A DNA stretch of 64,000 bases from Nymphaea colorata (lineage: Eukaryota; Streptophyta; Magnoliopsida; Nymphaeales; Nymphaeaceae). Made by a program: the position numbers and the translations under genes. Position 1 is the stretch's first letter. Each line of letters opens with the position of its first letter. The notes below the pieces were generated by a model. It was not told the DNA's origin, made no database searches, and worked only from the letters and a program-made list of their open reading frames with translations. Positions 17,149-43,544 of the stretch are shown here, piece after piece. The stretch lies in contig NC_045138.2 of assembly GCF_008831285.2 (NCBI RefSeq), positions 37,377,115-37,441,114 of the forward strand. Reading direction: 5' to 3'.

Positions 17149-17249
17149 CTGACCCAATATACTAGGACCTAGGATATTGGGTACCTGACCCAATATACTA
17201 GGATATTGGGTACCTGACCCAATATACTAGGACCTAGGATATTGGGTAC
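17149..17249. repeat. three-unit tandem repeat of palindromic units
   Basis: Three units of CTGACCCAATATACTAGG followed by ATATTGGGTAC. The first and third units carry an extra seven bases (CCTAGGA) that the second lacks. Each unit is itself an inverted repeat (ACCCAATAT against ATATTGGGT), so the tract could form serial hairpins or cruciforms. Single related half-units flank it (about 17,101-17,140 and 17,251-17,268). Confidence 0.85.
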
Positions 17250-19189
17250 TTGACTCAATACCCAAACTGGACACATTATTCTTCTGAATTGCAAATAATG
17301 GTAGTGTGGTACTTTAATTGATGAGTGTATACAAGTCCATTCAAGTATAAAATTAGCCATGAATCTCGAAAACAAGCGAATGGGCAGAAGGCTTCAGCCT
17401 TTCTTCCACTCACCCAAATGTTTGATGGTTCCAGTTCATACATAATTAAAAAAGAAAGAGAGTCACTCAAAGTATGACTATCTGTCAAATTAAATTCAAT
17501 AAAAAGCACAAAACAAGCCTCCTTATAAGGACAAAACGGTAAAAGTGCATTTTTTTTCTCAAAAGACAGATCTTTCTTCAAAAATATGTTTGAACGTCAG
17601 ATTGACTTTTGCACTTTCGAGAGATCATATATATGGCCGTGATTTTCTGAATTTTATACGATTCCATAATCAGTCCTAAATTAATTGCAATTTGTTAGCC
17701 TGGGTGGGGACAGAGTCAGGGGCTCGGCTATGGCCCCCCAAGCTTTTGAAAATTTAAATTTATCATTTATGTTTCGAAAATTTTAATTTCCACCCCAGTA
17801 GAATTTTTGAAAATTACGTTCGGCCTTCCTTTGATAAAAACGTTAGCTCCACTTCTAGCCTCGGTATTAACATTTTGAAAATGACTTCCGTTCAAAACCA
17901 TTCCACCAAAGTGATGAAATATGGTCCGACCAAGAAAAGCCTCATCAGTGAATTGAACATACGTTTTTTTTTTTAATACCAAAAAACAAGTATTCAAATG
18001 GGTCAATATTTATTTCAAAAAAAATATTATTTATTTTGACTGCTTAGAAAATCATTATTTAGTTTAAAAAAAATGACCTAAAAATGCTCTCTCTAAAAAG
18101 TGTTGTTTTCCTGACTTAGTTCACCAGTAAAGAAAGTGGCCTGATGTTAGCTCATCCTATCGAATGAGGCCCGATATCATTAATTCGCTTACACAGAGAA
18201 TATTAATGCTAAACGAAATCTATCTTGGGAAGTCGATATCATTTGATAGTCTTAGCATTGATATGAAAAGCTATGTAACTTTGAAGTCATGACAATATAA
18301 TTTTGTATTTCTCCTACAAAAATTTTGTAGGCCGTGCTTTGCACTTGTCCATCTTATATTCCTTCCAACTAGGCTTTTATATATATATATATACACACAC
18401 AAATGAGCGCACCAAATACAAATACTAATTATAAACTAAGCGGATACAATGAATGCCAACAGAAAATTGGCAACTCATAAAATTAATTATTAGTTGACTT
18501 TTAAAAACCACTTTGCGTATATTCATTTACAGGTCATCTGATCATATTGTTCGTATTGTAAATATTAGTGCACACAGGTTCTCATTATTAATATTATTCA
18601 TATTCTAAAAGCCTCAAGGATGATGTTTGCTTAGGCTCTTCTCCTCCACTGGGTTGGACTCAGCTAAATATTGGGAATACGAAACACTTTGTTCCACAGA
18701 ACACAACGTTCCTGCTTAGAGAAGCGACAGAAATTCTTATTTATAGAAATTTTAGTTTTTTTATGGGTGTTTGACGAAGAATGTCACATGACACACCTTT
18801 TACCGTGTTTGAATAGAAGTCTATGATAGATCAAGACAACAATATGTCTGCTAAAAACTTCTTTTGATTAAACATTCAGGCACGTTTTCAGGCATGTTTG
18901 AGCCTTTGGCTGCCCGACTCTTTGTTCCTGATTGGTCAATTTTACAGAGACGAAGTTCTGGTTTCTCAACGAGCCCTTTGTAAGGCAGATAAAAGATTTT
19001 GAAAACCCATATATAGACTGCATATGTTAAATCTGGAGAAACTAATATATATATATATATATATATATAAGCCCGTTTGAATGACTTGTACAATACAAAC
19101 TTTGCATCTTCACAAAACAAAGTAGTATGGGAAGCAGATGTTGCTGCCGATTAAGGGAGATGGCAGCAGAAAACAAAAAAAATTAAAAT

Positions 19190-22694: not shown

Positions 22695-25600
22695 ATGGAA
22701 GGCCGTTCTTTGGCGGAGACGTCCACCTGGGCTTTCTCTGCTGTCTTCGCTGTGTTGATTGCTGTCTCTGTCCTCATCGAACACGCTTCACAGATTGCCA
22801 CGCGAGTACTGCGCTCTCTTTTGTTTTTTCTCTCTCTCCTTTTCTCTCTATGAATTGAAATTTGCCAGATATTTAATTTTGTTGGTTCTACTTTTAGTAT
22901 CTTTGGAGAAGAAGGAAAAAGGCTCTGATCAAGGCTCTTCAGAAGATAAAGGAAGGTTAGAAGAGTTCGGAATGAACATGGTTACTTCTTTTATATTTGA
23001 TTGGTTTTCTCACAGCTGGTGTGTACATATATGTGTAGAACTCATGCTGCTGGGCTTCATATCTTTGCTGCTCACGGTTGCTGAAAAACCCATCACAAAG
23101 ATCTGCGTCACTAAAAGCGTTAGTGAGACTTTCCTTCCTTGCTTTCTCTCCCATGAAACGAGCAAAGGAGAGTTGAATCATGGAGTTCAAGAAATGTCTT
23201 CGTGCGAAAAGAAGGTAACAGTGAATTTAACAAGGAAGAGAGAAAAACAAAATTGTTTGCAAGCCTTGTATCAAACTTTTAGTTGTAGACGCAAGTAACT
23301 GGGGAGCTTCCCTTTGTCTGCTCATGATGTTTAGGGTATGGTTTCCTTAATATCTGAAAAAGGAATAAAGCAGCTTCATATCTTCATATTTGTTCTGGCT
23401 GTCTTCCACGTCTTCTTCAGCCTGGTCACCATGACCCTAGGCTTGGCCAAGGTCTGAGAACTGCCATTTCATATATTCTGTTAATTTTAGTTAGTGAAGC
23501 CATTAACTGAGATCATGAATGGTCGTGACCTAGATGAGGAGATGGAAAGCTTGGGAAAATGAGACACACACTCTCGAATACCAGATTTCCTATGGTGAGA
23601 ATAATTATTATTCTGACGCATGTACTTGGGAATGCGTTTCGCTCAGATTATTCATGTGTATTGGACTGCGAAATTTTGCAGACCCTCGAAGGTTCAGGCT
23701 TACAAGGCAGACCTCTTTTGGGCAGCGGCACTTGAAGTTCTGGAGCAACCATCCTCTCCTCCTCTGGCCTGTAAGTTCCAGCTTCCTTGCTTTAAACATC
23801 AGCAATTTGAGTTCATAATTCGCATATAGTTTACATTTTACAATCTTGATAGTAATTAGATGGATTAAGGGAGGATCTCGCTCATAGACACAGAGTCCTT
23901 AATTTCTTTTAATCAGACGTTCTTCTTTTTGTTTATGCAGGTGGCTTTTTTCCGCCAGTTTTTCGAGGGAGTATCGAAAGCAGACTATTTCACTCTCAGA
24001 CATGGATTCATTACGGTGAGAGATCTATAGCGAGAGAGAGAGAAAGAGAGAGAGATCTGTTTGATTGTTCATCTGATCATGCCTCTTTGGATATTCGATT
24101 CTCAGGCTCATCACTTGACGGGTGGTAGCAGCTTTGACTTCCACATGTACTTGGCGAGGGCACTTGACGAAGACTTTGAGGCGGTTGTTGGCATCAGGCA
24201 CGTCTCATTCGCAAAAACAAACCATCAAATAGCTGAATGCATATATTTTATATCAATTAGTATACGCATTTGACTTTCCCTGGTATTGATTCCTTTCCTT
24301 TTTTGTTTTCTGCAGTATATGGCTGTGGATTCTTTCACTATCTTTCATTTTCTTCAAGGCAGTTGGTAACCTTTCTCTCTCTCTCTCTCTCTCTCCCCCA
24401 TTTTCTGACATTTCATATTGAGGGGTCTTGTATATTTGATTTACTGAGACTTTTCAAGCACTCATGAGGCCATTGGAAAGTATACTAATCAAGCTTGGAC
24501 CTTAAGGCAAGCAACACTTTATGTGGGTTCCAAACATATAGTACACTGTGTCAATTTGGTTGCACTTCAAGTCGCCCCCATGACCATGACCGAAGATTTT
24601 ATCATTGTGTTTATAATTGCAAATACCATCTTCTAGAAGAAGTTCAACAATATTACTTAATGACTTGCCCTTCATTTGTTTGCAGTTTTTTATCACTATT
24701 TCTGGCTTCCATTTATCCCCTTAGCGGTAAGTTTAAGCAAGATCTATTCCTTAGATTCTCTTTAATACAACTACTTGCTCAGTTATTCTAATTGTGTTGA
24801 ATTTGGATCTGCAGCTGGTTTTGGTGGTGGGAACAAAGCTGCAAGTGATCATCACAAAAATGTGTGTAAGAAGTCATCGAAAATCAGAAGTGGTTGGAGG
24901 GTCTCTGCTGGTCAAGCCCGATGACAAGCTCTTCTGGTTTGGCCACCCTCAGTTTCTCCTCTACCTCATCCACTTCATCCTCTTCCAGGTAAGAGCTCCT
25001 TGAAGGGTCATAAACGGGTCGGGTTTGGGTCGGATGTACGCATATTTGAACTGACTTAAGCGAATCTGGTTTACTCAGACTTGGATGTGGATCCAGGTAT
25101 GAATTTAGTTAAAGCCTTTGAATAGATCACTAATGAAACAAATCAATACGCTTTTAACCATCCAGATTCGAAATCTCAGTCCAGTTCTGATGCAGGACTC
25201 CGACCCAGAGCCTAACCTGTTTAAGTAATCCAGAGGCTGTTCTAGATCTGTCTAAGACAAACTAAGTTCAGGTCTGTCGGACCTTTGGTTCAGACCCGGA
25301 CCTCATTTGATGAATATTTCCTTTGATGGGTACCACATGAACAAAAGGGGAACGATATTTTCTTTGTATGTGCCACTTATCCAGCTTCATTAGTGTACAG
25401 AATGTGCAAATTTGGCCGAGGGACTCATTGGAGTTCGACTTGGAGACAGGTTCTTTGTTTTTCATTGGTACAGTCAGTGGCATGCCCCTTTTTGATATGT
25501 GACTCCATTGATGTGTGTTTCTGATGAATGGCGCCAAGCGCTGAGGTTTGCTCTGTGATCTTCTTCCTCCCTCATTGGACAACTTGAATCCGGTTTTTTG

Positions 25601-26893
25601 TACATGATATAGAAGAAAAAGTTGTTGACTTTTACTATAATATACATTATAGTAAAAGTCAACAACTTTTTCTTCTATATCATGTACAAAAAACCGGATT
25701 CAAGTTGTCCAATGAGGGAGGAAAAATATCACAGACCAATATATATATCCACAACTTTTCATCAACTTATGAATAACTAAGTTGTAATATTGCGACAGCC
25801 ATTAATATGTGACCATATCAACAGCACTTTTTTAACATATAGTACTTTATATTCTAACTTAACTTCTAATGTGACAATATATGAATGATCAGTTTGGTGA
25901 AATTCCATGCTTGTTGATGTAAAACTTGTTTAATTTCTTTTGTCGTCAACAAATTATGATGACATCCACAAAGCAATTTGTAGGAGTTATAGTTAAAAGG
26001 AGACAAATTAATACTGCTATTGCTGTTCTCTGCAGTATAAATATGTGGGTTATAATGCAAATGTTTATGAAACGTAACCTTTGATCTCTTCCATCTATAA
26101 ACAGTTGAACGATTTCTTGTTTAATTCCTTGCAGAATTCCTTTCAACTGGCATTCTTAACGTGGAAAACAGTAAGTGATATAACTTTCTGTGTTTCATGT
26201 GTCTTTAATTCAAAGGCATGAACAACTTACTAAGTAGATCATGTTCGCTATGCAGATCGAGTTTGGCACAAATTCATGCATGCATGAGAAAGAGATAAGT
26301 AGCGTACTGAAGATTGTACTGGGAGTAGCAGTGCAGTTCATCTCCGGCTATGTGACTCTGCCACTCTATGCGTTAGTCACACAGGTACTTTCCCAATTTC
26401 AAATCCAATTTACACTTTTTCATTCCGAAGAAACGGAAACCAAGTCAACATTCTGCTTGAATCTTTTAGTCTCAATGATCATATTCTAAATTGTGATCGA
26501 AACTGACAAGGATCACGGCCAATTGTTTGCATTCAACAGATGGGCAGCCGAATACGAGAGGCAGTGTTCCCGGAGCGCGTCGCCCGTGGCCTGAGAAACT
26601 GGCATGAAAGAGCACGTAAGAATGTGAAGAAGAACAAGGTCTCACCTAGCAGCAGCCTCTCACCAAGCCTCTCGCCCAGATACCTCCTCACAGCTACAAA
26701 CTCGCTAGCTAGTGATTACAGATCAATGCCGAGCGCGAGCTCGACACCTGACTTTGTGAAGATTGATGTTCCCAATCTGGAGATAGCAGAGGTGGAAGGC
26801 CCCCAAGTTGTTGCCAGTGAGTGTCCTGCCAATGAGTCGACCTACAATGGCGAGATCTCATTTGGGGTACAGCCGCAGCAGGCCGATGCTTAG
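22695..26893 (+). CDS. MLO-family seven-transmembrane protein
   Basis: Fourteen exons coding for 520 aa: 22695-22805, 22898-22955, 23039-23214, 23335-23451, 23534-23594, 23682-23770, 23941-24015, 24106-24197, 24316-24365, 24686-24726, 24815-24988, 26135-26170, 26256-26384 and 26540-26893. MLO proteins are plasma-membrane, calmodulin-binding seven-helix proteins reported to conduct calcium; some clades are powdery-mildew susceptibility factors, others act in roots or pollen tubes. Seen here: [13 protein letters not shown] (N-terminal helix), [89 protein letters not shown]. Three loop-1 cysteines and the later NSCMHE cysteine are present. The calmodulin-binding helix [17 protein letters not shown] lies near residues 415-431. 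The Ser-rich tail is short. Exon 8 uses a GC donor (24,198); the downstream GT would break the frame. Clade not assigned. Confidence 0.95.
25564..25723. repeat. perfect 78-bp-arm palindrome with 4-nt loop
   Basis: Left arm 25,564-25,641 and right arm 25,646-25,723 are exact reverse complements when read base by base; the four-base spacer is ATAC. Partial complementarity (TCTGTGAT) extends about 12 bases further on each side. It lies in MLO intron 11, about 80 bases before the start of the duplicated block at 25,807. A transcript crossing it would form a long perfect hairpin. Confidence 0.95.
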
Positions 26894-28416
26894 TTGAGAT
26901 TCCATGGAATTTTCATGTTCTCTGTAGAAACAGGACAACTTCAATATCTCAAATAATGTAAATGAAAGTGATAGTCACTACTCTACCACTTGGAGGTGGG
27001 TTTCATAAAAGATCACTTTGTGTTCTTAGAAGTAGAACACATGTTCCAAAAGTATTTGAGTGTTTGCAGAACATGCTGTGATCATATTCAACATTTGACT
27101 GTCGAATTTAGAAGCAACGTTCGTAATTGCGATATATTTTTTGAGTGTGCGCCTGTTTCGGTTCCTTTTCTACAAAGAAACGATCGTCAGCCGTCCAATT
27201 AGACCACTGGATTATAAGATTCCCATGCTATAATATCAAACTCAGGAAGTTGCATCATTTCCACTAATAACATGAAAAAGGAATATGCTGTTCACCTGTA
27301 TGCTTGTTTAAGATCTGTAGTGTGCAGACTAAAATACTCTTGGCGGGTAAAAAGGAGAGGCCCTCTACAAGAATTAAAAAAGCAGTGAAAAAAAGTTTTA
27401 AAAGACTTTTTTTTCTTTTTTCTGAAGACTCTCTAAAATACTCAGGGCCCAACTATGCCTCCTTCGATCGGATTGTGCAAAGGATTTACACTTGCAGAAG
27501 CCACCACATTATGTTCTCTAACAAAAACTACATGCAATAAACCAAAAGAAAAAGAACAGTGAATGGAAATTAGATTACAATCTAAGTAATCAATGATAAT
27601 TAAACCCAGTCCAAAACGGACATCATTGAGAACAAGTCATGCCTTGATGTATGAGGATTGATCATGTAACTTGGAAGGTATTGAGAAACTAAAAGCGATC
27701 AATAAAATAAAAAAATGACATGTTTAAAGATTAGGGCATTCCAAGAGAAAAAGAAAATGCATCAACCATTTGGTCAAGCGTTTGAATGATAGGCTGTATG
27801 GAGCGCACTTGAAATGTGGTGGGAGACATGTTGTATATCTCGGGCTTGCAACTAATCCTATGTGGGACTCATCTACACCATTCCTTAATACTTATTTTTA
27901 TGTCTGTGGTCATTAATTCCTCATTTATTTTATTTTGTATGGAAGACTTGAAAGTTTATGACACAAATAAACTCTAAACGGATTGAAAACCTAAATGAGA
28001 AAAAAAAAAAGAGACCACACGAGATGATAAACAAAAATAGAAAATTAAGCAAAAAATTATTTTTTACAAAAGACAAAAACCCTCTCAACGAAAAACAATG
28101 CTCAAGAAAATGGTCGAGAGGCGAGAGCTCGCCAAGCAACTGAAACTAAAAGGAGGAAAAAAAAAATAAATAAATAAAAACTTGTTTTGTTCAATAACAT
28201 AGAAAAATAAAAAACCTTAAAATCGTGCCTTCCACCATGAACAGTGGATTCAACTCCGAACAAAAGAGGGCGAAGAGATCTGTAGATGGCCGTATATGTA
28301 CATATGCCATGCCACCCATTCTTGCCCTCCAAACTAAAGAGCGCGAAGATGGAGTACTCGCACGCCTCATCACCTCTTCTGGTTCTTTCCCTTTGTCTCT
28401 CAGCTGCCTTCTTCTT
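25807..28416. repeat. segmental duplication, copy 1
   Basis: This block runs from MLO intron 11 through MLO exons 12-14 and the intergenic DNA to the FLA signal-peptide codons, and it recurs at 29,933-32,377. Blocks match in order and strand with scattered substitutions. Copy 1 alone has about 0.5 kb at 27,000-27,490 (after MLO). This copy carries the intact MLO 3' end. Confidence 0.9.
26894..28348. other. spacer between MLO and FLA
   Basis: 3' flank of MLO followed by AT-rich DNA, with no gene seen. The part from about 27,490 is matched in the second duplication copy. The sequence just before 28,349 contains a TATATG box-like element near 28,291, about 55 bases ahead of the FLA ATG, and is shared with the second copy near 32,240. 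Confidence 0.55.
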
Positions 28417-28846
28417 CACCACCACTGCCGCCCAACAGTCGCCGGCGTCAGCATCGTCTTCTGGCCCACCTCAGGGATCCGGTGCCGGCGGCCCGTATAA
28501 GCTGCACTTCAGCAATCTCTCCAGCCAGCAAGTGAACGTGAGCACCGGCGCGGTGGAGACGGCCATCGGTCATGCTGTAAACTTGACGAAGCCGTTGGCT
28601 TTTTACCAGGTGGAGAAGGTGCTGCAGCCCGAGGTCACAGAATCTGGATCTGGACCATCAAGTGGTTCTCCGCCTCCTCCTCCTGCACCCACCGGTAATG
28701 GAGGTCAAGCGGAGGCACCGGGTTCGGCCCAAGCGGAGGATGCCGGCTCCGCCGGTTCTCAGACGGGCGCAGCGCCGGTTGGTGTTAGAGCACAGTGGTG
28801 TCTGTTGGCCGTCACTTGCTTGGTTTGCCTCGGACTGATGATGTGA
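28349..28846 (+). CDS. fasciclin-like AGP with most of the FAS1 domain deleted (FLA-a)
   Basis: Intronless, 165 aa. Residues 1-27 are a signal peptide (SSPLLVLSLCLSAAFFF). Next comes a Pro/Ala/Ser linker, then only the last third of a fasciclin domain: GPYKLHFSNLSSQQVNVSTG and NLTKPLAFYQVEKVL. After that follow an AGP-type Pro/Ala/Ser/Gly stretch and a hydrophobic GPI-signal tail. Compared with the intact paralogues at 33,016, 34,917 and 42,020, about 85-90 residues are missing, including the H1 motif and the Tyr-His region, with no frameshift. Its signal peptide and NLTKPLA block are closest to the 42,020 gene. It may encode a short cell-surface AGP or be an early pseudogene. The start is the ATG that opens the signal peptide and is conserved in the duplicate. 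It lies downstream of MLO on the same strand. Confidence 0.8.
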   Translation: MEYSHASSPLLVLSLCLSAAFFFTTTAAQQSPASASSSGPPQGSGAGGPYKLHFSNLSSQQVNVSTGAVETAIGHAVNLTKPLAFYQVEKVLQPEVTESGSGPSSGSPPPPPAPTGNGGQAEAPGSAQAEDAGSAGSQTGAAPVGVRAQWCLLAVTCLVCLGLMM

Positions 28847-29932: not shown

Positions 29933-30300
29933 ATGTGACCACATCAACAGTACTTTTTTAACATATATTACTTTATATTCTTAAAAGTTTCTTCTAATGT
30001 GACTATATGAATGATCAGATTGGGCATGACGATTATATATACAAAGCAAAAAATGCTGCTTGGTGAATTTACATGCTTGTTGATGTAAAACTTGTTAAAT
30101 TTCTCTTGTCGCCTACAAATTATGGTGACATCCACAAAGCAATTTGTAGGAGTTATTTTTAAGAGGAGACAAATTGCTACTGCTATTGCTATTCTCTGCA
30201 GTATATATATGTGGGTGATAATGCAAATGTTTAACAAACGTAACCTTTGATCCCTTCCATCTATAAACAGTTGAACGACTTCTTGTTTAATTCCTTGCAG

Positions 30301-31044
30301 AATTCCTTTCAACTGGCATTCTTAACGTGGAAAACAGTAAGTGATATAACTTTGTCTGTTTCATGTGTCTCTAATTCAAAAGCATGAACAACTTACTAAG
30401 TAGATCATGTTCACTATGCAGATCGAGTTTGGTACAAATTCACGCATGCATGAGAAAGAGATAAGTACCGTACTGAAGATTGTGTTGGGAGTAGCAGTGG
30501 CAGTTCATCTCCGGCTATGTTGACTCTGCAACTCTATGCGTTAGTCACACAGGTACTTTCCAAATTTCATATCCAATTTATACTTTTTTATTCCGAAGAA
30601 ACGGAAACCAAGTTAACATTCTGCTTGAATCTTTTAGTTTCAATGATCATATTCTAAATTGTGATCGAAATTGACAAGGATCGCTGCCAACTGTTTGCAT
30701 TCAACAGATGGGCAGCCGAATACGAGAGGCAGTGTTCCCGGAGCGCGTCGCCCGTGGCCTGAGAAACTGGCTTGAAAGAGCACGAAAGAATGTGAAGAAG
30801 AGCAAGGTCTCAACTAGCAGCAGCCTCTCACCAAGCCTCTCGCCCAGATACCTCCTCACAGCTACTAACTCGCTAGCTGCCGAGCGCGACCTCGACACCT
30901 GACTTTGTGAAGATTGATGTTTCCAATCGGGTGATAGCAGAGGTGGAAGGCCCCCAAGTTGCCGCCACTGAGTGCCCTGCCAATGAATCGACCTGCAATG
31001 GCGATATCTCATTTGGGTTGCAGCCGCAGCAAAACGATGCTTAG
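30301..31044 (+). pseudogene. MLO 3'-end pseudogene (exons 12-14 only)
   Basis: Copies of MLO exon 12 (30,301-30,336), exon 13 (30,422-30,552) and exon 14 (30,708-31,044). Exon 13 has two single-base insertions relative to the intact gene (near 30,500 and 30,520), so its frame is lost. Exon 14 keeps the calmodulin-binding helix but lacks 17 bases after the ATNSLA codons, which leads to an early stop at 30,902. No upstream MLO exons exist here, so it cannot encode an MLO channel. The splice sites are still intact, so the fragment could be transcribed. Confidence 0.9.
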
Positions 31045-32311
31045 TTGAGATTCCATGGAATTTTCATGTTCTCTGTAGATACAGGACAACTTCAATATCT
31101 CAAATAATGTAAATGGAAGTGATAGTCCCTACACTTACTGAAGCCACCACATTATGTTCCTTAACAAAACTACATGCAGTAGCAAATCTAATATAACTTC
31201 AAAGATGCATTAGACTTTGTGAAAGTGTGATATTTCTAAATATTATAGATTGTATAATATCAAAGCCTTTATTTGTTCCATGAGCAACCGAAAATTACAA
31301 TTTCTTTTTGCATTTTATCGCATTGTCATTCAGAATTAATTTATAGATTGCTCAAGGGCTGGATCCGAATCTTCCACCGGTTCAAGAATTAGAACAACGG
31401 TTGCCCCCACCTATGCTGCATGGAAGTGTGCTGATGGCGATGACAATATTTGAGTTGAATGATATATCATAGGTCCAACAAGCCGAAACCTTGAATAAAC
31501 ATCAACGAAAATTAAAAGAAAATGAACAGTGAGTGGAAATTAGATTACAATATAAGTAAACAATGATAATTAAAACCAGTCCAAAACGGGCATCATTGAG
31601 AACAAATCATTCCTTGATGTATGGGGATGGATCATGCACCTTGGAAGGCCAAAGAAAAACTAAAATCGATCAATAAAATAAAAAAAAAAATGTCATGTTT
31701 AAAAATTGCGGCATGCCAAGGGAATAGAAAATGCATCAACCATTTGGTCAAGCGTTTGAATGATAGGCTGTATGGAGCGCACTTGAAATGTGGTGGGAGA
31801 CATGTTGCATATCACGGGCTTGCAACTAATCCTCTGTGGGACTCATCTACACCATTCCTTAATTCTTATTTTTATGCCTGTGGTCATTAATTCCTCATTC
31901 ATTTTATTTTGTATGGAAGACTTCAAAGTTTATGACCCAAATAAACTCTAAACAGATTGAAAACCTAAAGAAGAAAACAAAAAGAGACCACAGGAGATGA
32001 TAAACAAAATTGGAAAATTAAGCAAACATTATTTTTTACAAAAGACAAAAACCCTCTTAATGAGAAACAATGGTCGAGAGCTCTTCAAGCAACTGAAACT
32101 AAAAGGAGGCAAAAAAATTTAAAAACATCAAAATTGAAAAGAAAAGAAAAAAAAAAAAAAAACTTAAAATCGTGCCTTCCACCATGAACAGTGGATTCAA
32201 CTCCGAACAAAAGATGGCGAAGAGATCTGTAGTTGGCCGTATATGTACATAAGCCATGCCACCCATTCTTGCCTCCAACACCAAGAGCCCACCAAAACAA
32301 AGAACGCGAAG
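31045..32311. other. spacer inside duplication copy 2
   Basis: No gene seen. It corresponds to the MLO-FLA spacer of copy 1, with an interruption at about 31,190-31,510 that has no counterpart there. Confidence 0.6.
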
Positions 32312-32392
32312 ATGGAGTACTCGCACGCCTCATCGCCTCTTCTGGTTCTCTCCCTTTGTCTCTCAGCTGCCTTCTTCGATGTGCACATATAG
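32312..32392 (+). pseudogene. FLA 5' stub (signal peptide only)
   Basis: The ATG and signal-peptide codons match those of the FLA at 28,349 almost base for base (MEYSHASSPLLVLSLCLSAA), then unrelated sequence follows and a stop is reached after 26 codons. The break coincides with the right edge of the duplicated block, so this is a truncated gene copy, not a gene that decayed in place. Confidence 0.85.
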
Positions 32393-33015
32393 TTGATGCT
32401 CGCTAAGTTCAAAATAAAAACTAATTTATTATCAACCCCACCACCTAGTCTGCTGCACCAATCCCCTCAAAATTTTCTGAATACCAAGAAAATCTCTTAA
32501 CTAAAAATTTCAATAATAATGTTTTTACCTAAAGAAACAGGGCACATACTGGGGGCCAAAATTTATTAAGTAAAAGCTAAAACATAATATTCAATTCCCC
32601 ATCTTTGACAAATTTACGGAGAAAATAAACATGCTGCGCAAACCAGCGCCAGCAAATATGGACTTGGCGAAGATAAATACTTAGATCTTCCCTCTCCAGA
32701 AGTAGTCCTAAGAACGAAGAAACAAACAAAGAAAAAGAAATAAGTAAAAGCATCGCATTGAATTCTAATTCTTTAATCCCAATGAATTTGAAAGAGGGGG
32801 ACGACCGAAGGCATAAAGAATTGTGGGTCGCCCCTCTTCTCAGCGGAGTTCGGCCCGAGACTTAAATTAAAGATTATCTGTTCCATGTCCCGTCGGCCGG
32901 TTCGGTCTCTCTCAATGGATCTTACGTGCCAGCACGTTCACCTCACCTACTCATGCCTTATACAAGAGCCCATGGCGTCCTGCCCATTTTCCACGGCACC
33001 AAAACCACGAAGATA
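32393..33015. other. spacer and promoter of FLA-b
   Basis: No gene in this stretch. A TTATACAA element near 32,958 lies about 55 bases before the ATG at 33,016 and may be the TATA box. Sequence from about 32,880 is GC-richer, as expected for a 5' leader. Confidence 0.5.
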
Positions 33016-33909
33016 ATGGCGGCATCTCAGGCTCTCGTCATCCTCTCCCTGTGCCTCTCATCTACACTTCTCTTCTCATCCGCTCCTGCTCAAGGTCAGC
33101 CCGCTCCGCCGCCGCCGCCGTTGAACTTGATCGACACGCTGCAGAAAGCCGGCCAATACTCCACGCTCATCCGCCTCCTCGGCACCACAAGGGTCGGCGA
33201 CCAGCTAGCTTACCAGCTCAACAACTTCTCGAAAGCCACCTTCTTCGCACCCACCGACGCCGCCTTCAACAGCCTTCCCTCGGGCTTCCTCAACACCATG
33301 TCGATGGAGCAGCAGGTTAAGCTCCTCAACTTCCACGTCGTTCCCCATCTCTTCACTTGGAACGACTTCAAGAATGGCGTCCCTCCCCAGGCGACTCAGG
33401 CCTCCGGACCCAACGGCCCTTACGTCCTCACCTTCACCTTCATCTCTGACCAGCAGGTGAAGGTGAGCACCGGGTTGGTGGAGACGATCTTCACTAATGC
33501 TCTGAACTTGACGCCGCCGCTAGCAATCTATCAGGTCGACAAGGTGCTGATTCCACCCGGTATGTTCAGCCCCTCTTCCGCATCGTCGTCGTCGCCGGCA
33601 CCAGGCAGCGGCTCTGCGCCATCTTCTTCTGCTTCACCACCATCGTCCTCTGCGCAACCACTTGCACCTTCCTCGTCATCGTCACCCCTGCCATCAGCGC
33701 CAACACCGACGAGTTCTTCACCTCCAACTCATGCGCCGCCTAGCAAATCTGCTCCGTCGCCAACCACCCCTCGTGCCAGTGCACCTGCTTCCACCGGTTC
33801 AGCGCCGGCTTCGACCAGCACTGAAACTGGTTCAGCACCTGCCGGTGCCCTTGGGCCCTGGAGCTTGATGGGCAGCCTCATGGCCGCTGCACTGGCTACA
33901 ATGGTTTAG
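33016..33909 (+). CDS. fasciclin-like arabinogalactan protein (FLA-b), group A type
   Basis: Intronless, 297 aa. A signal peptide at about 1-26 (LVILSLCLSSTLLFSSAPA) is followed by a short Pro run and one complete fasciclin domain (about 35-185): LIDTLQKAGQYSTLIRLL, the H1 motif ATFFAPTDAAFNSLPSG, LLNFHVVPHLFTWNDF, and the H2 end NLTPPLAIYQVDKVLIPP. A long Ser/Pro/Ala/Thr region follows (about 190-275), typical of hydroxyproline O-arabinogalactosylation, then a hydrophobic GPI-signal tail. Single-FAS1 FLAs of this type (as Arabidopsis FLA7/11/12) are cell-surface glycoproteins linked to secondary-wall cellulose deposition and stem strength; a wall role here is by family. The ATG at 33,016 directly precedes the signal peptide. 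The closest neighbour in sequence is the next gene, sharing LNLIDTLQKxGQYSTL. Confidence 0.93.
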   Translation: MAASQALVILSLCLSSTLLFSSAPAQGQPAPPPPPLNLIDTLQKAGQYSTLIRLLGTTRVGDQLAYQLNNFSKATFFAPTDAAFNSLPSGFLNTMSMEQQVKLLNFHVVPHLFTWNDFKNGVPPQATQASGPNGPYVLTFTFISDQQVKVSTGLVETIFTNALNLTPPLAIYQVDKVLIPPGMFSPSSASSSSPAPGSGSAPSSSASPPSSSAQPLAPSSSSSPLPSAPTPTSSSPPTHAPPSKSAPSPTTPRASAPASTGSAPASTSTETGSAPAGALGPWSLMGSLMAAALATMV

Positions 33910-35777: not shown

Positions 35778-36974
35778 GAATAGTGAGTTATTTTTAGAGA
35801 GAAGTGGAGGGATGATGCCGTCTGTGTGATCTTTCATTTCTCGGGTGATTAGTCATTTTATAGTTTGTGGCACGTGACATTCACTCACTCTCAACTACAT
35901 CTACTTGTGTAGTCTTTTTCGTTGCTTCTTTGAGTTCCATTAGATATATGAAATGTTTCTCCGATCTCTGTTTCCCTTTATTCGTCTCCGGCTAGTCGGA
36001 ATTTCTCCCGCTCACCAGAAAAACGTACAACAGGAAAAAGGAAAAGAATTGTCCACATCACTTCTGTTTTGTAATCTTTTTTCTATTTTGAGGGAGAAAT
36101 GAATCTCATGCATTAGATGCCAACAATTAACGGCGTAATCTTTTCGAATTGGGTAGTTTCCTCTTAATGTGTGACAGTAACAGATCAGAACGAGTAAATG
36201 CTAATGAGTAGAAGAAGAGGAAACAACGCAGCAGATTGGCAAATTACAGATGCTCACAAAGCAAAAGAGTAGCAACGAATTAACGGCCAAACAATCTCAC
36301 GGTCCAAAAGCAATCTGTGGACTATTCGCTTTCCCATTTTACTCGGCAACCTTCTTGCTCTGATGCTGTAACGGTAAGAGGTAATTGTGGCAAGAATTTC
36401 TGCATCAAAATCGTCCTTAAAGAGACGACGCAGATAACATTAGATGTGAGTATTACGCCTCTTATCTCAAATTTATTGCACCTTTTTCTGGTTGTCCCTT
36501 GATTTAGTAGCTATAACAAATACAGACTGTACTAAGAATTACATACATCATTCTAAAACAGTGTACCAAGTATTGAGCTCTTAGAATCAGAACCATGGTT
36601 ACATAGGCACCTGACAGTAACAGGAGGAGTTATTTGACAACAGCAACACTGATACAGTGTTTCTCGGGAATTAGATCTAAACATTAGAGCAAATTAATGA
36701 AACAGTTCTACTGTATTTTAGTAATCTGTTTCAACTTTTAGGACAACTTTATGGAACCAGAATGTTAGTGTTCATTGTATAGGCCAATTTGGCGGTCCGA
36801 ACCAATATGCATCAGCTGATACACACCAAAGTTGGCATTGGTTCGCCTTTCAAGGCTTGAAGAAACCAATGCCAACTTGTGCTCGGCTAGAAACCAGTCC
36901 ACATGAAGGTTAGGGTTGAAATTCAATTGAATATCTAAAATTGAACCAAATTTATGACTGGGGAGCTTGCAGGG

Positions 36975-37140: not shown

Positions 37141-39179
37141 CATTGTTATCTGTGAGTGAGAGGTTGACAATCCACCCCTATAAAGAGGCATAAAACAACT
37201 GTTTTTGAATAAAAAAATTACAAATAGGTGCCTACTAATGTGCCAGTATCAAACAACTGCCCAATCTTTCAAAATAATCAAGACACTTAACTTTTGCATC
37301 TGATTCTTAAAAAACCGTCTTCTCGTACAAAATATTAAAAAAAAAGGGAGACTATAACATCCTCCTCAAACAAAGTTCAAAAGAGTAGGAAGTGAATCGA
37401 CCGGCTTTAAAGATTAGAAACTCGGGATTTTCACTGAATAGACCTTGACGTATAACCCGCTCTTCTAGCCTCAACTGGAAAGAGATCAAATTTGAATTCG
37501 AAGCAATGGATGTCTTGTAATTCAATGATTTTGATTCCTGTTCGTTCCACCAATTAAAATCAAATTTGGCCCAATCTTTTACTAAATAAAAGAATTGAGC
37601 CCGAACCAACTCAAGAATGAGGCTCCCATGCATTTGCATATATCAATATGTACATACGTATGCTATGCAGTATGTAAGAAAGATCTAAAATTAAAATCTT
37701 CTCTTTAAAACTAAAGAGTTCAATCTTTTTATTGTTGGATCCATAATAAACCCATGGATCCTCGGGATTGACGGATCATTTGATATTCTCTAATTCTAGA
37801 TTATAGATCAAGCTAAGGGTCACAATCCCGTATTTCATGTTTCAATAAAAACTAATATTAATAATATGTACAAAATTTCTTAAGAGGAGGGAACAGCCAA
37901 GGGCAACCGACTCTCGCCGGCTAGTGACGACCCAGCGATCGTTGCCGTCCGATAATAGGATGGGAGCAGGCACGGTAATCCCTCGCTGAACGACAAGGGT
38001 GTGAGTCTTATTTATTTTTATTTTTTTTTTAAATGGTGGTTTTTGTCTTTCTCTTGGTTAATTTAATATTTTTAATGAAAAAAAAAGCAAGGTTTTCGTC
38101 AATGATGAATTTCAGATGTGGGTCGGAAGTTTGATATTGGCGCCGGCTGCGTTATTTTTAGGCGCCTATTTGCAATTTCTTCTTTCTTTAGTAAATGTAA
38201 CCTTAAGCTGCAAAACAAAATCCTGGGAAGTCCAGGAGAGAGGAGTTACCCACGGCTAAAGCCATGGCTAAAACCATTTTCTTGATGACCAAATCCGTCA
38301 TCGGTATCATGTTAGGAGATGGATAAATCCATCAATAATTTCTGATATTAGGTATTTAGGAGACTGTGGACCGTGGCTGAAAGGTTTTTAATGATGGCTA
38401 AATCTGTCGCCAGCATTGTGTTCGGTGACGGACGAATGGGTAACTAATTGTTGGTATTCGGCAATGGTTTTGGAACGTCTATCGTAGGTTGGAACAGATC
38501 ACAGGTAAACACTTGTATCAAGCGAATGAGTTCGAGCGTCAGGTACGGCCTATAATGTGATTTGGATTTGGATTAAAAGTCGGATTCATGCATCTGTTAA
38601 AAATTCATTGGATTCTGATTATGAATTTTAATTTTGGGTTTGATATTTTTCTTTCTCTGAATTTGAATCTGAATTCATATCTGAAATATAGATATCTGAA
38701 AAAACTGATATGGTAAAATATACATCTGATTTAGATATGATCCATTGACATCACCACCTAAAGATCTAATTGCCGATAAATAAGATGAGCCAGATCCAAC
38801 TAAATGATTTGAACCTGCTCCGGTCATTGATCCATTTACATCCGTGTTACCTAGGCCGGGTCAACAGATCGAATGCACCTAATACCAAACATGGTTAGTA
38901 ACAAATATAATCATATTTTCCATTCCTAAATTGGATCTAAATGCAAAATAATCTGAATTATTAAGGCCGCAACTGTGTCTGAACTTGAATGCAAATGGTA
39001 ATTCTAGTACATCCGAGTCTAAAATCACCCACATGATCTACACTAGATAGGGATGACAAGATTTGAACGGGGTTAGTTAACAGACATACTCCTCAATAAA
39101 CCGGGTTAGGCTCAATCCAAGCCGGACCAAGGGCGGTTAGGGCTAGGACAGGCCACACCAGTCCAAATGAATTTGCAGC

Positions 39180-39609
39180 TAGAGATGTTAACAAATCGGA
39201 TTTGAATTAAATATATACTTAATCATATCTACTTTTTCAGATATTCGCATATTTAAATTTGAACCCAAATTCAAATACAAATGAAGAAAACCCATGTTTG
39301 AATCTCAGTCTAAAATCTGATTGAATGAACCAAATCCAACTTTTAAATTCACATCCAAATCCAAATTTTAGGCAGAGTTTGGCCGGTTTTCAAAATATAA
39401 GGGTATTAGGTGTATGATATTTATTTAAAACTACATTCGATTTGAATTCGAACCCGAATTCGAATTTGATTATATAATTATGTATATTTGAATACGAATC
39501 TGATTGAATGCCATTTGTTAAATCTGAATCCAGTCCTTTTTCTTAATCAGATATTAATTGAATGGTTCGATCGGGTATCCCATCCAAATGAGATATGTTG
39601 ACATCCTTG
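39180..39609. mobile_element. hAT-type MITE with 8-bp target duplication
   Basis: The left end TAGAGATGTTAACAAATC and the right end, read on the other strand as CAAGGATGTCAACATATC, form imperfect terminal inverted repeats. TTTGCAGC directly flanks both sides (39,172-39,179 and 39,610-39,617), an 8-bp target-site duplication as expected for hAT transposons. The roughly 430-bp body is AT-rich (repeated AATTTGAATTCGAA-like words) and has no transposase. Confidence 0.85.
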
Positions 39610-42019: not shown

Positions 42020-42760
42020 ATGGCGTCGCCATCCAGCTCTTCGCCTCTCCTCTTCCTCTCCCTCTGCCTCTCTGCTGCGCTCCTCTTCTCCGGCGCTTCT
42101 GCCACGACCAACATAACCGGAATCCTCTCGAAGGCCGGCCAATTCTCGGTGTTGATCCAGCTTCTTAACACCACACAGGTGGGAATTCAGCTCACCAACG
42201 AGATCAACAACTCGTACCAGGGCATGACCCTCTTCGCCCCCAATGACGGCGCCTTCAACAGCCTTGAATCCGGTTTCCTCAATAACCTCACGCAGGAGAA
42301 CCAGGTTAAACTTCTTATGTTCCACGTCCTCTCCAAGTTCTACACCTGGGATGACTTCAGGAGCATCAGCAACCCTGTGATCACTCAGGCATCCGGATCT
42401 GACGGCCCTTATGGCCTGAAGTTCACATACATCTCTAACCAGCAAGTGAATGTCAGCAGCGACGCCGTCACCACCACGTTCACGAATGCCGTCAACTTGA
42501 CAAAGCCGCTGGCCATATACGAGATCAGCAAGGTTCTGTATCCCAAGGACAAATTCAATGCACCCCTTGCACCAGCTTCGTCGCCATCGGAACAGAATGC
42601 TACAACTAAAGCTGGGGCACCCTCTAGTGTTACATCATCTAAGGGTTCATCGTCCGATTCTTCAAAGTCAGCAGCTGCCAGCGTTCGTGGGCAGTGGAGT
42701 AATTTCATGGGGAGTCTGTTCGCAGTCGTGGGGATGGCCTGCATCGGCTTCATGATTTGA
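42020..42760 (+). CDS. fasciclin-like arabinogalactan protein (FLA-d), group A type
   Basis: Intronless, 246 aa. Signal peptide 1-27 (SSPLLFLSLCLSAALLFSG), then directly TTNITGILSKAGQFSVLIQL, the group-A opening seen in FLA11/12. The H1 motif MTLFAPNDGAFNSLESG, LLMFHVLSKFYTWDDF and the end NLTKPLAIYEISKVLYP complete one fasciclin domain (about 30-180). The AGP region is shorter and less Pro-rich than in FLA-b and FLA-c, and the C-terminus has a hydrophobic GPI-type tail. Several N-glycosylation sequons (NIT, NNS, NLT, NVS) are present. Its signal peptide and last domain block resemble those of the truncated gene at 28,349, suggesting that gene came from this subtype. A run of CAG codon-like triplets precedes the ATG in the leader. 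Confidence 0.93.
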   Translation: MASPSSSSPLLFLSLCLSAALLFSGASATTNITGILSKAGQFSVLIQLLNTTQVGIQLTNEINNSYQGMTLFAPNDGAFNSLESGFLNNLTQENQVKLLMFHVLSKFYTWDDFRSISNPVITQASGSDGPYGLKFTYISNQQVNVSSDAVTTTFTNAVNLTKPLAIYEISKVLYPKDKFNAPLAPASSPSEQNATTKAGAPSSVTSSKGSSSDSSKSAAASVRGQWSNFMGSLFAVVGMACIGFMI

Positions 42761-43234: not shown

Positions 43235-43544
43235 AAGGCACTCACTGGTTTTTTACTGACCTGCAGAAATGTTACCAATTTTCATTATTTCAATAGAAGG
43301 CACTCACTGGTTTTTTACTGACCTGCAGAAATGTTACCAATTTTCATTATTTCAATACAAGGCACTCACTGGTTTTTTACTGACCTGCAGAAATGTTACC
43401 AATTTTCATTATTTCAATACAAGGCACTCACTGGTTTTTTACTGACCTGCAGAAATGTTACCAATTTTCATTATTTCAATACAAGGCACTCACTGGTTTT
43501 TTACTGACCTGCAGAAATGTTACCAATTTTCATTATTTTAATAC
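43235..43544. repeat. minisatellite, five 62-bp units
   Basis: Five head-to-tail units begin at 43,235, 43,297, 43,359, 43,421 and 43,483, each starting AAGGCACTCACTGGTTTTTT and containing CTGCAG. Units differ by only one or two bases, so the expansion is recent. It is not a CRISPR: there are no unique spacers and the host is a plant. Confidence 0.97.

Follow-up and report, generated by a model that had tools for sequence, protein, structure and literature searches.

An Mlo gene carries, about the middle of one of its introns, a perfect palindrome at 25564-25723 of the window (the whole 64-kb stretch of DNA that was analysed), in which two 78-bp arms surround the loop ATAC. The palindrome is real and conspicuous but an ordinary kind of object, either an intronic inverted repeat, long and homogenised between its arms, or a MITE that lacks a recognisable target-site duplication. 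The explanation placed first here, tentatively, is that an older and imperfect inverted repeat had its inner 78 bp rewritten from arm to arm, by template switching or by conversion. The parts of the palindrome, read directly from the letters, and the gene structure that hosts them are as follows.

24749..24988, + strand: Mlo coding stretch that runs up to the intron, covering positions 287-366 of the Pfam Mlo profile
24989..26134, + strand: Mlo intron with the palindrome, GT...AG, phase 0, 1146 bp (bounds taken from splice sites in the sequence and from where the Pfam match stops)
25548..25563, + strand: outer left stem, imperfect, 13/16 pairing with 25724-25739
25564..25641, + strand: left perfect arm, 78 bp
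25642..25645, + strand: loop ATAC
25646..25723, - strand: right perfect arm, 78 bp, reverse-complementary to the left one at every position
25724..25739, - strand: outer right stem, imperfect, 13/16
26135..26170 (26170 approximate), + strand: start of the next Mlo exon (reading frame and acceptor; Mlo identity by eye)

The coordinates, the perfect 78-bp arms and the loop reported in a first-pass annotation of this DNA were all exact on recheck. The 160-bp palindrome that it described is thus a real perfect core, but the symmetry runs on to imperfect 94-bp arms that it had missed (25548-25641 and 25646-25739), in which 91 of the 94 positions pair (97%), giving a near-self-complementary stretch of ~190 bases. 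When each arm is numbered from its outer end, the three mismatched pairs (25551/25736, 25560/25727 and 25563/25724) occupy positions 4, 13 and 16, all within the outermost 16 bp. Perfect arms of 78 bp have a chance expectation of ~4e-40 (spacer 0-10 nt, 64 kb), and this is the only perfect hairpin in the window, dinucleotide repeats apart, with arms >15 bp at spacers of 0-20 nt; the runner-up of that kind, at 36829-36878, has 15-bp arms and a spacer of 20.

The MLO gene family has a role in powdery-mildew susceptibility, and the placement of the palindrome in an MLO intron, as first proposed, is borne out by the gene structure. Matches to Pfam PF03094 (Mlo) fall at 23029-23457 and 24749-24988 on the same strand (converted from residue numbers), and the open reading frame at 26507-26890, on the other side of the palindrome, likewise matches Pfam Mlo. 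The donor CAG/GTAAGA (24988/24989) coincides with the exact end of the second Mlo match, and beyond the acceptor TTGCAG/AA (26134/26135) the following exon resumes in the same phase; both splice sites were inferred from sequence, not from transcripts, and their positions put the palindrome about mid-intron.

Next to the palindrome lies a tandem duplication (25807-28414 and 29933-32377) comprising the 3' part of the Mlo gene and sequence beyond it, with BLAST identities of 86-89% in two large blocks. Its second copy, 29933-32377, resembles a truncated Mlo gene, with none but the final Mlo exons. The duplication starts 68 bp beyond the right end of the palindrome, which thus lies outside it and gains no ancestral state from it, and no evidence was seen of a causal tie between the two. 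A cluster of fasciclin-like genes is also found in this neighbourhood, at 28286-28843, 32866-33906 and near 42200-42551; the Pfam Fasciclin match is at 32866-33906, the open reading frame at 28286-28843 has no Pfam match, and 28470-28637 is similar to 42384-42551 as 28525-28624 is to 33450-33549. Together with Mlo, these genes are the reason for treating the window as plant DNA.

Central to the question of origin is the distribution of the mismatches. The outer 13/16 pairing exceeds chance (7e-6), so that the imperfect outer stem was evidently part of the structure. Uniform placement would confine the three mismatches to the outer 16 of 94 bp with a probability of 0.004, and a clean run of at least 78 anywhere in the arm has a probability of 0.017, both tests having been picked after the pattern was seen. 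Moreover, the inner arms differ at 0/78 sites as against 27/326 aligned sites in the intronic part of the neighbouring duplication (Fisher P 0.004), whereas the full arms, at 3/94, do not differ significantly from those 27/326 (Fisher P 0.11). These observations fit the inner arms having been copied from each other more recently than the outer ends. At plant rates of 1.3e-8 and 6.5e-9, the 95% upper bound on the age of the last homogenisation, from 0/78, is ~1.5 Myr and 3.0 Myr respectively, and the 3/94 of the full arms correspond to 1.2-2.5 Myr. The suggestion of a "very recent origin or gene conversion" made in the first-pass annotation therefore holds as a general reading, but "very recent" is too strong for arms whose age is bounded only to these few million years.

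It is possible to outline how such rewriting might have proceeded. The starting point would have been a non-coding quasi-palindrome in the Mlo intron, with 94-bp arms imperfect at least at their outer ends and, as DNA, able to extrude a hairpin or cruciform; the inner 78 bp of one arm would then have been overwritten from the other. The simplest route would be one intrastrand template switch, or one snap-back, with the 4-nt loop as the priming site; arm-to-arm repair would be another. As pre-mRNA, the same sequence would fold into a stem of 94 bp, open to nuclear cutting by Dicer-like enzymes either ahead of splicing or following it. That the arms were homogenised, in which direction, and any dicing are what we infer. 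As to direction, composition weakly favours the left arm as the original, since this is the arm that is like the intron's T-rich sense strand (log-odds 2.0 nats). Such a signal often misleads or is unremarkable: among 766 overlapping intron windows used as a control for strand composition, 70% had the right sign, 22% scored at least as high and 4% were equally strong in the wrong direction.

Perfect arms with a short spacer, here 78 bp and 4 nt, are what homogenised quasi-palindromes show. In the portions of the literature drawn on here, template switching is described as making or repairing perfect stems, with 4-nt loops enriched in rRNA hairpins at 56.0% vs 42.1% (PMC8794818), and as homogenising the arms of inverted repeats in yeast (PMC8604942). 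Given that the yeast events involved arms of up to 16 bp (PMC8604942) and that the largest rRNA switch pattern, of 59 bp, failed that paper's own quality control (PMC8794818), a short-range switch spanning 78 bp would be a long one.

The main rival, which is possible if somewhat less favoured, is a MITE or foldback-type transposable element of ~160-192 bp, nearly fully palindromic, that inserted in the intron and whose ends have degraded, or whose target-site duplication was lost or was 2-3 bp long and has mutated. Plant MITEs often form such hairpins, and an AT-rich sequence of this size, placed in an intron and palindromic almost throughout, is typical of them. The inverted ends also stand above chance out to the outermost 16 bp. 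No superfamily terminus motif known to us was recognised at the palindrome ends. A young transposon should show sharp ends and a target-site duplication, yet no exact duplication of at least 5 bp, nor one of 8-11 bp with one mismatch, was detected at any sensible boundary; the lone 5-bp repeat in the search falls within the right arm, its register off by 28 bp. When symmetric boundaries were shifted from 6 bp beyond the ends to 31 bp within them (2-10-bp repeats), the only matches were two of 2 bp, both within the arms (AT at offset 12 and another at offset 28). Perfect inner arms with decayed ends are, furthermore, the reverse of what transposition would keep. The earlier suggestion of a foldback element thus retains its terminal inverted repeats (94-bp arms, 97%) but has neither a detectable target-site duplication nor a second copy of the palindrome in the 64-kb window. 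The transposon reading nevertheless stays close behind arm-to-arm rewriting, since the search would miss mutated duplications of 2-3 bp.

Other repeats of the window deserve mention in their own right. Nested inverted arms at 38548-39373 (38647-38752 with 39184-39290, 71%; 38548-38586 with 39333-39373, 83%) are possibly an old inverted-repeat element, with no exact symmetric target-site duplication at either arm pair. At 43235-43544 a 62-bp unit is repeated five times with 99% identity, forming a very young tandem array, and the units of a short tandem array at 17149-17260 are themselves near-palindromic.

Related sequence was also sought elsewhere. The longest word that the arms share with the rest of the window is at most 14 nt, and the 14-nt match at 42263-42276, considered as a related copy, was taken as chance, as it reads by eye as a fasciclin-type coding stretch. 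An arm 19-mer had no match in viral_contigs and two in genome_contigs, which are taken as chance because 1.9 are expected in 257 Gb on both strands. With the four MLO coding stretches examined, the longest exact word in common is 9 nt; given this and the 14-nt limit in the window, the idea of a target-derived proto-miRNA was set aside. Among the matches listed for MLO, intron and inverted repeat in the literature, no such element appears, as judged by title and the start of the abstract.

On the transcribed strand, the intron would carry a long hairpin with a 94-bp stem, and the capacity for a long double-stranded RNA that had been claimed for it finds support in the predicted fold, whose energy of -144.4 kcal/mol is matched by none of 200 shuffles (mean -36.4, sd 3.95; z -27). 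This hairpin may plausibly give rise to siRNAs. Such siRNAs would not obviously target the spliced MLO message, the arms having no exact word longer than 9 nt in common with the coding stretches. A large effect on MLO is not expected, given that the hairpin lies within an intron with ordinary-looking splice sites and has no long word in common with the examined coding stretches; most likely the gene tolerates it, and any effects would be local and in cis.

A further reading, an unlikely one, is that the hairpin would be functional, of the sirtron or intronic long-miRNA type, and kept for 21-24-nt siRNAs that would methylate their own locus and tune MLO. In its favour are the strongly folding stem in the transcribed strand and literature that traces small RNAs of rice and maize to hairpins in introns: intronic 24-nt miRNAs of rice are proposed to direct methylation at their host introns (PMC3661559) and 76% of the genic miRNA-like hairpins of maize lie in introns and are associated with smRNAs and methylation (PMC10760457). 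Against it, no Rfam family matched the window at the gathering score, a search from which a new or uncurated miRNA would be absent; the mature MLO message would not be an obvious target; and six exact arm words of 17-20 nt occurred in none of the papers searched.

Least probable of the rivals, and improbable indeed, is a library or assembly artefact: palindromes are known to make chimeric reads, fold-back self-priming could be the source of one here, and arms made equal by consensus polishing would explain the perfection of the inner arms, but a fold-back read would run on as the reverse complement of the left flank, whereas the actual right flank is different sequence that continues into the 3' part of the intron and the next exon, inverted homology between the flanks is undetectable (best local score 16, shuffle mean 18), and the outer stems differ at three sites, unlike a copy of one arm. 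The artefact raised in the first-pass annotation is accordingly discounted.

It is also conceivable, as a long shot, that one template switch created or perfected the 78-bp stem and thereby gave an MLO susceptibility gene its own nuclear source of siRNAs, by which locus methylation and mildew susceptibility would be switched naturally. The stem is larger than the switch patterns given in the consulted parts of the papers compared (PMC8794818, PMC8604942). Should a relative prove to carry an imperfect or one-armed allele that confirms such an origin, plants would offer a clean case in which a long perfect RNA hairpin arises in one step and feeds a small-RNA pathway. If the palindrome is a MITE, it is ordinary.

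Comparison with known systems, as described in the portions of the papers drawn on, places the palindrome among several familiar classes. Plant MITEs and foldback elements, which span 50-800 bp and have TIRs with TSDs (PMC12550479), have length, palindromy and intronic insertion in common with it, whereas here a target-site duplication is not detectable. With the sirtrons and intronic long miRNAs of rice (PMC5545994, PMC3661559) it shares a long RNA hairpin in the intron of a protein gene, the difference being that small RNAs from the present stem are hypothetical. In the mitochondria of Nematomorpha, coding palindromes have perfect arms of up to 142 bp, for which the authors propose template switching (PMC6649704); they too are long and perfect, with arms kept identical, but are organellar, coding and numerous, in contrast to a plant intron and a single copy within the window. 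Finally, set against the template-switch hairpins (Monttinen and Loytynoja 2022, PMC8794818; yeast, PMC8604942), the 78 bp found here are far longer and the switch is a proposed event; like them, however, the palindrome has a perfect stem and a 4-nt loop, and its mismatches keep to one section of the arm, which is the pattern that partial rewriting should leave.
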